Source of the DNA: Candidatus Dormiibacterota bacterium | GTDB taxonomy: Bacteria; Acidobacteriota; Polarisedimenticolia; Gp22-AA2 | Assembly (NCBI GenBank): GCA_035635555.1 | Contig: DASQAT010000040.1 | Coordinates: 1 to 64,000, forward strand | Reading direction: 5' to 3' | DNA: 64,000 nucleotides | Shown: positions 27,708 through 33,969 of the stretch, one piece after another | Numbering within the stretch: the stretch's first letter is position 1 | Layout: each line of letters starts with the position of its first letter | The notes under the pieces: generated by a model | Databases searched by the model: none | Told to the model about the DNA's origin: nothing | The model's input: only the letters and a program-made list of their open reading frames with translations | Program-made: the position numbers and the translations under genes

Positions 27708-30107
27708 CTAGTGGCCGTCTTTCCGCGCCCGCGCCAGCTCGCGCGCGAAGACCGGGTTTGCCGGGAACTCACGAGCGAGCTCCTCGAAGAGCGCGCGGGC
27801 GCGGTCGAGCCGGCCCTCGCGCTCGGAGGCGAGGGCGAGCAGCGCCTTCGCCATGGGCCGCAGGTAGCGGCCCCGCTCCGCGGCCGTCTGAAGCTGCTCC
27901 ATGCCACGGTCGCGATCCCCGTGCACGCCTCCGAACCACAGCAGGAATCGCTTGTAGACAGGCAGGCAGCCGATGATGTAGTTCGCGGCGCCGAGCGCCA
28001 CATAGGCGTCCTGGGCGTCGGCCCGCACGGCGAGGAGCCGCGTGGCTTCCTTCTCCGCACGACGGATCAAGGAAAGGGCCGAGAGCTGGCGCTTCTCGAT
28101 CAGGGCCTGGAAGTCTCCCTCCATGCCGTCGGTTAGAGTGAGGACGAAGAGACCATCCGGGTCGTCGGGATGTGTCTTCAGCCGCTTCAGCGCCATATCC
28201 CTGGCGCTCCCATTGGCGGCCAGAAAGGCCGCGCGCCGCGCGGGGTCGGGTGCCCCCTGGATACCGCCCAGCAGTCTGTCGTCGTCGAGGAAGAACTCGG
28301 AGGTCAGGACGCCCTCGTGGTCGAACTCCTCGAAGAGATGGCTCGCCGCCTCGGCGGCGACGCCGAGAGGCTCGTCCGGGCGCGCGCGCCGGTAAACAGC
28401 GATCTCCTTGCGGGCCTCATCGAACCGAAGCTCGTACATGAGGCGGAAGGCGGCGTCGAGCTGCGGCGTGTCGTCCGCCCGCCCCTGCGCCACGCCGCAG
28501 ATGACGGTCGTTGCCGTCAGGCCCGCGACCAGGAGAGCTCGCACGGGACGATCAGCCGGGAGGGGGCCCGCGGGGACGGACCTCCCGCCGGCGTTCGCGA
28601 CCTCCCCTTCGTCGAGGTAGTCGCGCTCGGCCCGCCGGATCGCCCTGTAACGCTCGAATGCGGCCCGTTCCTCTTCGAGACCCAGCATCGTCCTCAGCGT
28701 GCGCCCCCGGTACGTGTGACTCAGCATCCCGTGCCAGTGGCGCAGGAGGAAGAGCGGGCTCTGCCGCAGCACGGCGGGGATGTGCCGGACCTTCATCCAG
28801 CGCTCCGCGCGCCAGCGCTGGAATTCGATCTCCTCGGCCGTCAGGTGCTCGCTGCGCACGACCGCCGTGGTCCCGTCGTATTCCTCGAGGCGCTCGCTGA
28901 TGATCAGCCCGCGGTCGCGGAAGTCCGCGGTCATCGGGGTTCCGGGGTACGGCGTCGGGTGCTGGATGTAGGGCCAGTCGACGTGGCGGCGCGCGAACTC
29001 GAGATTCGCTTCGATCGATTCACGCGTGTCCCCCGGGTTCCCGACGATCAGGCCGCCGACGACGTACATCTTGTTGCGATGCAGATGATCGATCGCGGCG
29101 ACAGATGCGTTTCCGACGGTCCGTCCGTCCCTCCGCTCCCGGTTCTTGGACGAGGCACGCAGGAACTCCAGGTCGTCCTCCAGGACATTTTCGATGCCGA
29201 GGAAGACGTAGCGAAAGCCCGCCCGGCGCATCAACGGGGCCAGCGTCTCGCCATGGTTCGCGATGGACGAGGTCATCGCCTGCACGAGGTAGTGCAGCGT
29301 GTTCAGCTTCGCATCGATGATGGCGCGGCAGAGAGCCTCGAAACGCCGGACATCGAGGGTGAGATTGTCGTCGACGAGGAAGACGGCCCGCGCCCCGTGC
29401 GCCCGGGCGTCGCGGATGTCCTCGAGGACCCGTTCGATCTCGAAGGTGTGGAAATTCCGGCCGCGCATCGCGATGATCGAGCAAAAGCTGCAATCGAACG
29501 TGCAGCCGCGCGAGGTCTCGACGACATCGACCGGCCGGCCCAGCAGCGTGTAGCCTCGGAGCACGCGCGCGCTCCGCTTCGGAAGCCGCAGATCACCACC
29601 GCGCAGGCGGCCGACGGGTCTGTCGGGATTGCGGCGAACGGTGTCGCCGTCGCGATAGGTCAGCCCGGCGATGTTCCCGTACCCTCCGCCCGTCTCCATC
29701 GCCCGAACGAGGTCCCGGAAGGTCATCTCCCCTTCGCCGCGCACGATGAAGTCGGCGCGACCCGGTGAGGGCGCCTCGTAGGCCTCCGGCGCCAGGCTCG
29801 GATCGTAACCTCCGACCGCGAAGCGCGCCTCGGGGCGCAAGGAACGGACGAGCTCCATGACCCGCGTCGCGGTCCGGCGCTGGAAGGTCATGATCGAGAG
29901 GCCGACGAGGTCCGGTTTCAGGTCGCCGACGAGCCGGGACACGGTGCGACGGACCCGGTCCTGGGCCAGGATCAGGTCGGCGACCGCCACCCTGTGATGG
30001 GGATCGACGTTCCCGGCCAGGGAGGTGAGCGCGCCGTTCGGCATCCGGATCCCGACCGCCGGCATGTGCTCGAAGGAGTCCGGCATGGAAAGAAGAAGAA
30101 TGTTCAT
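27708..30107 (-). CDS. B12-binding radical SAM protein fused to a TPR domain with an internal signal-like segment
   Basis: 799 residues. An N-terminal cobalamin-binding-like Rossmann domain ([20 protein letters not shown]) is followed by a radical SAM core with CTFDCSFCS (Cx3Cx2C) near residue 200 and [20 protein letters not shown] further on. After about residue 510 the sequence changes: a hydrophobic, signal-peptide-like stretch ([20 protein letters not shown]) ends at ADD, then TPR-like helices run to the C-terminus. A GTG at 28544 could start the second part as its own exported protein, but no stop separates them. The ATG at 30107 overlaps the stop of the GIY-YIG gene (ATGA, 30104-30107). 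Confidence 0.85.
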
Positions 30108-30416: not shown

Positions 30417-31178
30417 CTACGGCGAGACGAGTCTGACGAACTGTTTCAGCTCGTCTTCTTTGAGATCGGAGACGGCCCAGTAGTTCATCCCGCCCTGGGT
30501 CCAGTGGAGCAGGTGGTACCCCTGACGCGTCGCGACGGTCAGGGGGCGATCCATGTCGCGTGACGCGGGCCAGACCATGAGGTTGATGATGTGCTGTCGA
30601 CGCTCGTAGACGAGGGCCGCGATCGGCCGGCCTCCCAGGTAATCGAGCCGTCCGCCCGTGAGGGGAAAGCCTTCATCGGCCAGATCCTTCACGGGCGGCG
30701 AGAAATCGAGTCTGCCGTTGAACCACGGCTTGACCGTGTGCTGGTCGGACGACGGCACATCGGCCAGGTGGCCCGGCATGAGCGAGCGGATATGGCTGGC
30801 GACCACCTCCTGCGCCAGGAGATCATCCGCGGATTGCCGCGGCGCGACCAGCACCGCCAGGACGCCGGCCAGCGCCCCCGCGGGCAGCCAGAGCCACCGT
30901 GTCCACGAGAAGCCGCTCGGAGGACCCGCCCGAGCGGCCGCGCCGACGGGCTCCGCGGACGCGCGCAGGGCCGCCTGGGCGCGGGTCGTGAACCCTTCGG
31001 GCGGCCTGAAATAAAGCGCCTCGTCGCGGAGTGCCGTGCGCAACGCCCGCTGCGCGGAATGCTCCCGGGCACAGGCGGGGCACGTGTCGAGATGACGCTG
31101 CACATCCAGGCTGTGCGTGAGATCCAGCTCGTCGTCGAGGAAGGCGTGCAGCAGGGATCGGGCCTCCTGGCAGGTCAT
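30417..31178 (-). CDS. Membrane anti-sigma factor with zinc-finger domain
   Basis: 253 residues. The N-terminal zinc-binding anti-sigma motif is [13 protein letters not shown] (Hx3Cx2C) near residue 28, preceded by [21 protein letters not shown] transmembrane helix near residue 90 ([18 protein letters not shown]) is followed by a periplasmic domain with [20 protein letters not shown] and a C-terminal [15 protein letters not shown]. This periplasmic part resembles other transmembrane anti-sigma sensors. The ATG at 31178 overlaps the TGA of the sigma gene, so the two are made together. Confidence 0.92.
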
Positions 31179-31720
31179 CTTGCGACCCCCCCGCCCGGCG
31201 GACCTGCGAGCCCGATCTGCAGGCGGCCGCGCGCGCGGGCCAGCCGCGACATGACCGTTCCGACCGGGATGTCGGCGATGGTGGCGATCTCCTTGTAGGA
31301 AAGCCCCTCGATCTCCCGCAGCACGAGCACCTCGCGGAACTCCACCGGCAGCTCCTCGAGCGCCTGTCGCACCCGCGTCGTGTCCGCTTCCTTCAGCACG
31401 AGCCTCTCGGGGTTCAGCACGTCCCCGTCCGGCGTGTGGACCTCTTCGTCGAAGGGCGTGGTGACCTCGTGCGCGCGGCCGCGGCGCAGCCAGGTGTAAC
31501 AGGCGTTGCGCACGATCGCGAGAAGCCACGCGCGCGGGTCCGTGCCGCGGAATCCGTGGAACGCCTTGAAGGCTCTCAGGAGCGCCTCCTGCACGAGGTC
31601 CTGCGCGTCGTGCTCGTTGCGCGTCAGCCAGCGGGCCAGGTTGTAGGCAGCGCCCAGCTGAGGCAGCACCGACTCTTCGAAACGGGCGACGGCGCGCTCA
31701 TCCAGCGCTCGAGGTGCCAT
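31175..31720 (-). CDS. ECF-type RNA polymerase sigma factor, second system
   Basis: 181 residues. Region 2: YNLARWLTRNEHDAQDLVQE and DPRAWLLAIVRNACYTWLRR. Region 4: EFREVLVLREIEGLSYKEIA and IPVGTVMSRLARARGRL. The start is ATG 31720 (MAPRALDERAVARFEES); the frame remains open far upstream but that part is antisense to the metallophosphoesterase gene. An ECF-like promoter motif lies on its own strand at 31747-31774, suggesting autoregulation. It is divergent from the phosphoesterase/CuA/cytochrome/TatA operon. Confidence 0.93.
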   Translation of the reverse strand: MAPRALDERAVARFEESVLPQLGAAYNLARWLTRNEHDAQDLVQEALLRAFKAFHGFRGTDPRAWLLAIVRNACYTWLRRGRAHEVTTPFDEEVHTPDGDVLNPERLVLKEADTTRVRQALEELPVEFREVLVLREIEGLSYKEIATIADIPVGTVMSRLARARGRLQIGLAGPPGGGVAR

Positions 31721-31746
31721 TTCGACCCGCGGCCCCTTCCAGATGA

Positions 31747-31774
31747 AGACTCTCGTGAGAGCTCTTTTATTCCC
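31747..31774 (-). promoter_or_regulatory. Candidate ECF promoter for the sigma/anti-sigma genes
   Basis: On the minus strand, GGGAATA (from 31774) and GTCTTC (from 31750) are separated by about 17 bases, close to the common ECF pattern of GGAAC/T and GTC. It is 27 bp upstream of the sigma start. A similar motif on the opposite strand serves the divergent operon. Pattern match only. Confidence 0.4.
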
Positions 31775-31798
31775 GCGGCGAGAGTAGCACACGCCTCG

Positions 31799-31826
31799 GG
31801 AATTTCCCCGGCCGGGGCGAGTCTCG
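31799..31826 (+). promoter_or_regulatory. Candidate ECF promoter for the divergent phosphoesterase operon
   Basis: GGAATT at 31799-31804 and GTCTCG at 31821-31826 with a 16-base spacer, preceded by one more G so that both divergent motifs read GGGAAT. The -10 flanks are also alike (GCGAGTCT here, CGAGAGTCT on the other strand). It lies 56 bp before the ATG at 31883. Confidence 0.4.
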
Positions 31827-31882
31827 GAGGGCGGCGGCGGTTTCCCGATGATCGGGGCCGCGCGCCGGAAAGAGAGGCGGAG

Positions 31883-32884
31883 ATGGCAAACCGGGTGGAT
31901 CGACGATCGTTCCTGAAGATCGCGGGGACTTCCCTGGGGATCGGCGCGCTCTACAGCGTGGCGCCGCTCCTCGGGGCCGACGGAGAGGGCTCCGAGATCG
32001 CGAGGATGCTGTGGAAGAAGCACGGAGAAAGGCTCAAGCCGTTCTCCTTCGTCCAGCTCAGCGACACGCATGTCGGGTTCAACGGACCGCCGGACCCGCT
32101 CGGAACGCAAGCCTACGAGCGGGCGGTGGACATGATCAACGGCCTGCGCCACCGGCCCGACTTCGTCCTCGTGACCGGCGACCTGACGCACGACAGCGAG
32201 AAGCCGGGGGAGCACGCGGACCGGATGAAGAGGTTCCAGGAGATCTCCAGCCGCCTCCGTGTGGATGCTGTCCGATGCGTCCCCGGGGAGCATGATGCCG
32301 GGCTCGACGGCGGAGCGCTCTTCCGGGACGTCTTCGGCCCGACCTTCTACTCCTTCGACCACCGCGGCGTTCACTTCATCGGCCTCGACAACGTGTCGCG
32401 CGCCAAGCCGGAGGTGGGTCCCGAGCAGCTGGCGTGGCTGAAGAAGGACCTGGCCCGGTTCCCCACGACCGCCCCGATCGTCGTGTTCACCCACAGACCG
32501 CTGTTCGATCTGAAGCCGGAGTGGGAGTGGTTCACGAGCGATGGCGACGAGGTCATGAACGCGCTGGCGTCGTACGAGAACGTGACGGTGCTCTACGGCC
32601 ACATCCACCGGCAGCACGAGCATGCCGCCGGCGGCGTCCGGCACTACGCGGCCCGCTCTCTCATCTGGGCCTTTCCCGACCCGGCGACGACGGCGGACAA
32701 GAAGCCGCTGCCGTTCGACAAGGAGGAGCCGTTCAAGAACCTCGGACTTCGTCTCGTCCAGGAGCCGGGGACGCGCGGTGCCGTGCCCGACCCCCCGACG
32801 ATCGACGATGTCGAGCTCACGATGCGCGAGTACTCGGGCACCGTGGGCATCAACCAGTTCCTCAAGGAAGGAGCCGCACGATGA
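31883..32884 (+). CDS. Tat-exported calcineurin-like metallophosphoesterase
   Basis: 333 residues with a Tat signal (DRRSFLKIAGTSLGIGALY). Metal-binding motifs are QLSDTHVG (Asp61, His63), VTGDLTHD (Asp100), PGEHDAG where most relatives have GNHD, FTHRPLF and YGHIHRQHEH. The Asn-to-Glu change at 136 touches a metal/phosphate ligand and may alter chemistry. ATG 31883 follows AGAGAGGCGGAG; the frame is open from 31436 on the far side of the promoter region. It is first gene of a four-gene coupled operon with CuA, cytochrome c and TatA proteins. Confidence 0.9.
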   Translation: MANRVDRRSFLKIAGTSLGIGALYSVAPLLGADGEGSEIARMLWKKHGERLKPFSFVQLSDTHVGFNGPPDPLGTQAYERAVDMINGLRHRPDFVLVTGDLTHDSEKPGEHADRMKRFQEISSRLRVDAVRCVPGEHDAGLDGGALFRDVFGPTFYSFDHRGVHFIGLDNVSRAKPEVGPEQLAWLKKDLARFPTTAPIVVFTHRPLFDLKPEWEWFTSDGDEVMNALASYENVTVLYGHIHRQHEHAAGGVRHYAARSLIWAFPDPATTADKKPLPFDKEEPFKNLGLRLVQEPGTRGAVPDPPTIDDVELTMREYSGTVGINQFLKEGAAR

Positions 32885-33264
32885 GAACCGGACAGGATTG
32901 CGGAAGGAAAGTGTTGCTTGCGATCGCGCTGACGGCGGCGGGGCTGACCTTCGCCTCGCCATTCCATGCGCGCGCCGAGGAGGCCCCCGGGCCGCGCGTC
33001 GTGGCCATCACGGCCAGACGCTTCGAGTTCGTCCCGAAGGAGATCACCTTGAAGCAGGGGGAAGCGGTGACGCTCCGCCTGACCAGCGAGGACGTGACGC
33101 ACGGTTTCTTCATGAAGGCGCTCGGGATCGACGCCGTGATCGAGCCCGGCCAGCCCACCGACGTGACGATCACACCGCAGACGACGGGCAGCTTCACGAC
33201 GATCTGCGATCACTTCTGCGGCGAGGGGCACGGCAACATGCACATGACGATCGTGGTCCAATGA
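32881..33264 (+). CDS. Free-standing CuA-type cupredoxin, exported
   Basis: 127 residues. A signal peptide (KVLLAIALTAAGLTFASPFH then ARA) precedes a cupredoxin domain, FEFVPKEITLKQGEAVTLRL. The binuclear CuA site is complete: His in SEDVTHGFFM and CDHFCGEGHGNM, i.e. Cx3Cx3Hx2M, as in cytochrome oxidase subunit II. It lacks the two N-terminal membrane helices of true subunit II, so it is a soluble electron carrier. Its ATG overlaps the upstream TGA (ATGA, 32881-32884), and it overlaps the next gene in the same way. Confidence 0.93.
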   Translation: MRTGQDCGRKVLLAIALTAAGLTFASPFHARAEEAPGPRVVAITARRFEFVPKEITLKQGEAVTLRLTSEDVTHGFFMKALGIDAVIEPGQPTDVTITPQTTGSFTTICDHFCGEGHGNMHMTIVVQ

Positions 33265-33812
33265 GCCGGCTGGAGAGGGTACGCCATCCGGGTGGGGTTC
33301 TCAGACGCATCACTCCGGGCCTGCTTCTGTTCCTCACGGCCTGCCAGGCCACGCCGCCCGGCCGCTTCGAGAGGACTCTCGCCGCCGAAGTGAAGCGGAG
33401 CATCACGATCGGCGGCCGCGGCGACAGGAACCCGCTTCCCTCGAACGAGTCGACCGTCGCGAAGGGGCTCGATCTCTTCTCGAGGCACTGCATCGCCTGT
33501 CATGGTCTCGACGGCCAGAACACCGGGGTGCCGTTCGCCGACAGGATGTCTCCGCCCGTCCCGTTGCTGGTCTCGCACGACATCCAGGCGTACGCGGACG
33601 GCCAGCTCAAATCGATCATCGAGCACGGCATCTTTCCATCCGGCATGCCGGCGTGGAAGGGAATCCTGGACGACGACGAGATGTGGGCGATCGTCCACTA
33701 CCTCCGGCATCTCCCTCCCAAGGGAAGTCTGGGAGTGCCGACGTTCTACGAGGGCATCCGCTCAAACGCAGAAACAACTCCCTCCCCGCAAGCGGCGGGG
33801 GCATCGAGGTGA
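33261..33812 (+). CDS. Class I cytochrome c lipoprotein
   Basis: 183 residues. A signal sequence ends in a lipobox (LLLFLTAC, Cys near residue 28), so the protein is anchored by lipid on the periplasmic side. One haem site, CIACHG near residue 77, with the distal Met in FPSGMPAWKG and the C-terminal helix DDEMWAIVHYLRHLP, defines a mono-haem cytochrome c. The ATG overlaps the CuA gene stop (ATGA, 33261-33264). It is the natural partner to receive or donate electrons with the CuA protein. Confidence 0.93.
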   Translation: MSRLERVRHPGGVLRRITPGLLLFLTACQATPPGRFERTLAAEVKRSITIGGRGDRNPLPSNESTVAKGLDLFSRHCIACHGLDGQNTGVPFADRMSPPVPLLVSHDIQAYADGQLKSIIEHGIFPSGMPAWKGILDDDEMWAIVHYLRHLPPKGSLGVPTFYEGIRSNAETTPSPQAAGASR

Positions 33813-33816
33813 CGCC

Positions 33817-33969
33817 ATGGGATCGATAGGCCTTCCAGAGCTGCTCCTGATCTTCTTCATCGTCCTGCTCATCTTCGGAGGCAAGAGGCTGCCCGAGATG
33901 GCGCGCGGGCTCGGGACGGGCATCCGTGACTTCAAGCGCGCCCTGCACGAGAACACAGAAGGAAAGTGA
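33817..33969 (+). CDS. tatA: Twin-arginine translocase subunit TatA
   Basis: 50 residues. The short N-terminal helix and hinge GLPELLLIFFIVLLIFGGKR is followed by LPEMARGLGTGIRDFKRAL, the amphipathic helix of TatA/E. It lies 4 bp after the cytochrome gene, in an operon whose first product carries a Tat signal. No tatB or tatC is present in the window, so this is likely a dedicated extra copy. Confidence 0.95.
   Translation: MGSIGLPELLLIFFIVLLIFGGKRLPEMARGLGTGIRDFKRALHENTEGK

Follow-up and report, generated by a model that had tools for sequence, protein, structure and literature searches.

At the locus examined here, a gene for an ECF sigma factor and a gene for a metallophosphoesterase (MPE) diverge from an intergenic region of 162 bp (31721-31882), with the sigma ATG at 31720 on the minus strand and the MPE ATG at 31883 on the plus strand of the window, by which we mean the whole 64-kb stretch of DNA that was analysed. 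The source genome is that of a soil bacterium of the Acidobacteriota, and the nearest named relative carrying the locus is MAG gp22 AA3. The sigma protein (181 aa; 31175..31720, minus strand) consists of region 2 and region 4 only, with Sigma70_r2 and Sigma70_r4_2 (PF04542 and PF08281) both scoring above cut-off, and it is one of about 20 sigma-70-type matches in the genome. Its gene overlaps by ATGA with that of an anti-sigma factor (253 aa; 30417..31178, minus strand), and the two genes are probably co-transcribed. The anti-sigma factor combines an N-terminal zf-HC2 domain, a probable single membrane segment placed from the sequence at about residues 95-112 and a periplasmic C-terminal domain, which is the architecture of ECF26-type anti-sigma factors. 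Its zinc ligands (C3, H29, C33 and C36) are kept in 55-59 of 68 aligned relatives. The structure of the periplasmic domain was predicted with good confidence and found its best, weak structural match in RseB/MucB (E 2e-3); no Pfam family was found for this domain. Three of its histidines (H129, H147 and H196) are invariant, and these residues, spanning positions 129-196, could possibly serve as metal or haem ligands. Further downstream on the minus strand (27708-30080), an open frame encodes a radical SAM/B12-binding protein fused to a TPR-like region.

On the plus strand, the MPE gene (31883..32884) encodes a Tat-exported protein (DRRSFLK) with a GpdQ/Rv0805-like fold. MPE residues 135-138 (32285-32296) read GEHD instead of the GNH[DE] that is usual in calcineurin-like phosphoesterases, and the Glu is present in all 42 aligned relatives with letters at this position. 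The MPE gene is followed by genes for a cupredoxin-domain protein (32881..33264), which adjoins the MPE in many relatives, a c-type cytochrome with a lipoprotein-like N-terminus (33261..33812; PF13442/PF00034) and a TatA-like protein (33817..33969; PF02416). ATGA overlaps join the MPE gene to the cupredoxin gene and the latter to the cytochrome c gene, suggesting a single operon, and all four genes would be transcribed together. Sulfite is not claimed as a signal because the operon lacks a sulfite oxidase.

Two ECF-type sites in the intergenic region

The intergenic region contains one ECF-type site on each strand. The site facing the sigma gene has its −35 box at 31769..31774 (minus strand; GGGAAT followed by AAAA) and its −10 box, GTCT, 18 bases past GGGAAT at 31747..31750, the same spacing as in the rpoE1 and rpoE4 promoters of Sinorhizobium meliloti. 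This form of the ECF-type promoter at the sigma gene itself, GGGAATAAA...GTCT, is kept across phyla. The site facing the MPE operon has its −35 box at 31798..31803 (plus strand), where GGGAAT is followed by TTCC in place of ATAA, and its −10 box, GTCT, 17 bases further at 31821..31824; a 17-base spacing is also found in the mapped S. meliloti sorT promoter and in three of the related loci described below (L045, L052 and L054). Positioned from the mapped S. meliloti promoters, the putative start of the sigma transcript would lie at about 31738 (minus strand), and that of the operon transcript at about 31833 (plus strand). An earlier note, made from the letters of this DNA, had placed matching boxes on both strands here. 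It was right about the coordinates and about the presence of GGGAAT and GTCT on each strand. Its spacing of 16-17 bp fits only if AGTCT is taken as the second box, the real gaps being 18 (minus) and 17 (plus), and the CGAG that it included in this box is not conserved in relatives, whose sites have GGAAT(A) and GT in common, with 17-18 bases between them.

The pattern GGGAAT-N17/18-GTCT is rare. It was found twice in the window against 0.20 expected, and five times in the whole 4.28-Mb genome, two of these being the sites described here on opposite strands. The scan of the genome for a regulon used this strict pattern only, and judging by its five matches the regulon looks very small. The family's GGGAATA is missing from all of the other three matches (0/3), of which two apparently lie inside open frames and one upstream of a patatin-like frame. 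These three were not counted as regulon members.

Site strength was compared with two weight matrices. With a matrix trained only on the sigma-strand sites of 49 distant loci, the minus-strand site ranked first in the window at 26.2 bits, the next best site reaching 13.1, and the plus-strand site scored 7.1 bits at rank seven. With a matrix trained on the MPE-strand sites of distant loci, the plus-strand site was second in the window, behind the minus-strand site. Of the two sites, the one on the operon side is clearly less strong. Its −35 box, CGGGAATTTCC, is unchanged in two relatives of the same genus and family, the nearest that have the locus, and its −10 GTCT reads GTCA in one of them (G005).

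The two −35 boxes are separated by 23 bp (31775..31797) containing the element AGAGTAGCACACG (31780-31792; CGTGTGCTACTCT when read on the minus strand), which is invariant in the same two relatives, i.e., in three genomes of the family including the window. The GTGTGCTACTCT conserved between the boxes was considered as a general housekeeping extended −10 element and rejected, as GTGTGNTANNNT occurs only once in the window, inside AGAGTAGCACACG. No sigma-70-type promoter was found by scan.

Conservation of the paired sites in related loci

Sigma orthologs were gathered from relatives, public genomes and plasmids, and the main test set comprised 32 independent loci outside the window's own clade with divergent sigma and MPE genes. 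Of these 32 loci, 31 had GGAAT-N17/18-GT on the sigma strand and 30 on the MPE strand, and 30 had it on both (the MPE-side site was absent in L055 and L082). By comparison, dinucleotide shuffles gave both sites in a mean of 0.03 loci and a maximum of 1, and a reversed-sequence control gave 1 locus on each strand. The earlier note had proposed an alignment of orthologous regions as a check and loss of the boxes there as grounds for giving up its reading; the outcome did not go against that reading, both promoters being kept in 30 of these loci, far above the shuffle mean. The loci with both sites span five phyla, namely Acidobacteriota, Verrucomicrobiota, Planctomycetota, Binatota and Pseudomonadota. 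In most of the divergent loci, 18 bases separate GGGAAT from GT on each strand, a tight spacing typical of a promoter, and the 17-bp gap on the MPE side forms a minority class (3/30). Among non-duplicate MPE-bearing loci that were fetched later, both sites were again found in 8 of 9 (L137, L138, L139, L141, L143, L146, L167 and L170), the remaining one, L159 (Gemmatirosa), having neither site; L140 also has both sites and was left out of this count as a repeat of L040.

The sigma-side promoter is also found at loci with other neighbours. [N]GGAATA-N17-GT precedes the sigma gene in 49 of 67 independent loci. The promoter is retained in L012-L014, where no MPE was found beside the sigma gene and where, in L012 and L014, a gene for a DoxX-type membrane protein takes the place of the MPE operon. 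The presence of the promoter at sigma loci without an MPE neighbour argues that the motif follows the sigma gene. The strict motif was missing in several alphaproteobacterial relatives without an MPE. In all three of L012, L013 and L014, the ECF promoter sits 159-329 bp upstream of the sigma gene, leaving a long leader, and the stretch between the two includes GTGTGATAGCGTTTCG or a near copy.

Among loci, the paired −35 boxes lie between 2 and 53 bp apart. In 33 collapsed loci, the distances cluster near 2, 13, 22-24, 30-34 and 40-46 bp, and a post hoc test on these loci for phasing at 10.5 bp gave a hint of it (Rayleigh R 0.50; jitter p 2e-4). The nine later loci gave p 0.008 for phasing, and p 0.22 without the common 20-24-bp class; helical phasing is not claimed here, the test being post hoc and the later loci giving only this last value once that class is removed.

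Interpretation and competing explanations

There are well-known cases of ECF factors that activate both their own gene and a neighbouring operon. The boxes at this locus most probably represent back-to-back promoters read by the adjacent ECF sigma factor, which would thus be autoregulated and also drive the MPE operon. The occurrence of the paired layout in at least five phyla makes it very probable that the sigma factor switches on both itself and the operon. We favour this reading because of the boxes on both strands in 30 of the 32 loci, the rarity of the motif in the genome, the match to mapped S. meliloti promoters, the ATGA overlap of the sigma and anti-sigma genes and the conserved zinc ligands of the anti-sigma factor. 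At rest, the anti-sigma factor, as a single-pass membrane protein with a cytoplasmic zinc finger and an RseB-like periplasmic domain, would hold the sigma factor. A periplasmic or redox signal acting through the anti-sigma factor would then free the sigma factor, which presumably recognises both promoters. Polymerase starting at the minus-strand promoter with its 18-bp gap would yield more sigma and anti-sigma factor, while polymerase starting at the plus-strand promoter with its 17-bp gap would yield the Tat-exported phosphoesterase, cupredoxin, cytochrome c and TatA.

The weakest step in this reading is the plus-strand promoter in the window genome, which is supported chiefly by where it lies and by the pairing conserved among relatives. 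If only the sigma-side site were real, the plus-strand GGGAATTTCC...GTCT would have arisen by chance or from a palindrome, and the operon would use another promoter or read-through. The low score of the plus-strand site with the sigma-trained matrix, the drift of its −10 box in G005 and the partly palindromic nature of GGGAATTTCC and CCGGCCGG are in line with such a scenario. However, sites on the MPE side recur in 30 of 32 independent loci, the plus-strand site is second-best in the window with the MPE-side matrix and has an invariant −35 box in relatives, and its TTTCC/17-bp form is that of a mapped promoter, S. meliloti sorT; we therefore regard a lone sigma-side promoter as unlikely. That the boxes are ECF promoters read mainly by another ECF factor of the genome, with the adjacent factor in a secondary role, would fit the number of sigma-70-type matches in this genome and the cross-activation documented among S. 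meliloti ECF26 factors (PMC6180224, PMC3511301). By contrast, the motif tracks the family of the adjacent sigma factor across phyla and gene contexts, and no strict motif was found upstream of other sigma genes in the genome, leaving such cross-talk highly improbable as the main input. The inverted arrangement of the GGGAAT boxes and the 13-bp conserved element between them could also be taken as an operator for a DNA-binding regulator rather than as −35 elements. An operator hardly accounts for each GGAAT being tied to a GT on its own strand at 17-18 bp while the box-to-box distance ranges so widely, and we give this explanation almost no weight. The back-to-back promoter reading had already been put forward in the earlier note as the expected layout of an autoregulated ECF factor driving its neighbouring operon, and it is supported by the divergent loci and by the match to 5'-mapped S. 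meliloti promoters.

A wider proposal can be offered as speculation that is rather more doubtful than probable: the locus may belong to an ECF group that has no name and occurs in five or more phyla, forming a self-contained cassette in which a sigma factor and an anti-sigma factor with an RseB-like, histidine-bearing periplasmic domain are combined with back-to-back promoters for a periplasmic GEHD phosphoesterase and a cupredoxin/cytochrome pair, the −35 boxes tending to be stepped by about one DNA turn. If true, such steps would suggest two polymerases on one face of the DNA. A literature search for an ECF/MPE/cupredoxin module found no description, which is weak evidence of absence as many subscription papers were outside its scope. 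For this uncultured lineage of Acidobacteriota, the analysis predicts the consensus of an ECF promoter, its target operon and its regulon. Relatives that are in culture (Herbaspirillum, Cupriavidus, Pseudomonas and Limnoglobus) have this cassette with its paired promoters too, among them Herbaspirillum chlorophenolicum (L061), Cupriavidus necator (L085) and Limnoglobus roseus (L057), and signal and function are testable there.

Comparison with known systems

The sigma family forms its own clade in the tree (support 100/99), which may lie beside ECF26, ECF15 or SigR/SigH. Holding it together with RpoE1/4/6 (ECF26) gave p-AU 0.38, with long branches involved, and joining it to SigR/SigH, from which the best tree separates it, gave p-AU 0.21. 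The −35 GGAATA and −10 GT of ECF26 promoters are present here; an ECF26 label taken from the promoter was nevertheless rejected, since the tree does not place the sigma factor there. The best family match of the sigma factor is NF009185 (PRK12533), at 214.9 bits (E 1e-63) and below the curated cut-off of 248, and proteobacterial relatives have the same divergent MPE layout. The best solved-structure matches of the sigma factor are mycobacterial SigH, of the actinobacterial SigR/SigH group (ECF12). SigR/SigH promoters have GGAAT/GTT. RsrA is among the zinc-finger profile matches of the anti-sigma factor, with the RsrA model scoring 36.4 bits against a cut-off of 62.5. RsrA, a redox-switch anti-sigma factor of the RsrA/RshA type, is soluble, whereas the window protein has a hydrophobic segment and a periplasmic C-terminal domain.

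Parallels are also found among the ECF26 promoters of S. meliloti, which were mapped by 5'-RACE or RNA-seq and have the same boxes (PMC6180224, Table 1). The rpoE1 operon promoter reads GGGAATAAA...GTCT (in full GGGAATAAATCCATAGCCCTCCGTGTCT) and the rpoE4 promoter TGGAATAAGC...GTCTC, both with a gap of 18, and the sorT operon promoter reads GGGAATTTTCC...GTCT (in full GGGAATTTTCCGGGGCGTCAGTCGTCTC) with a gap of 17 (PMC6180224). The RpoE1-EcfR1 system thus shares with the window the −35 sequence and the 18-bp gap, and EcfR1 is homologous to the window anti-sigma factor including the periplasmic domain (E 5e-14). RpoE1 is 35% identical to the window sigma factor; its system differs in having no MPE and an operon in which a small gene precedes that for the sigma factor.

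The RpoE4-EcfR4 module (ECF26) controls sorT-sorU-azu2, and both sorT and rpoE4 were induced by RpoE4 in reporter assays; the 1-bp difference in spacing was also noted (PMC6527743). As in the window, an 18-bp gap at the sigma gene is combined with a 17-bp gap at the target operon, and autoregulation with an adjacent operon for an exported enzyme, a c-type cytochrome and a cupredoxin, the sorT operon encoding sulfite oxidase, cytochrome c and pseudoazurin. By contrast, sigma gene and target are co-directional there and divergent in the window, the enzyme is a sulfite oxidase there and an MPE in the window, EcfR4 has no significant similarity to the window anti-sigma factor, and RpoE4 is only 36% identical to the window sigma factor. 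Given the 18/17 gaps and the sorT gene set, the window shows this arrangement again, with another enzyme and with sigma gene and target divergent, and by analogy its sigma circuit may work like the ECF26 sulfite module. The conserved set of enzyme and electron carriers suggests a further, uncharacterised stress response in the periplasm, next to the one known for sulfite.
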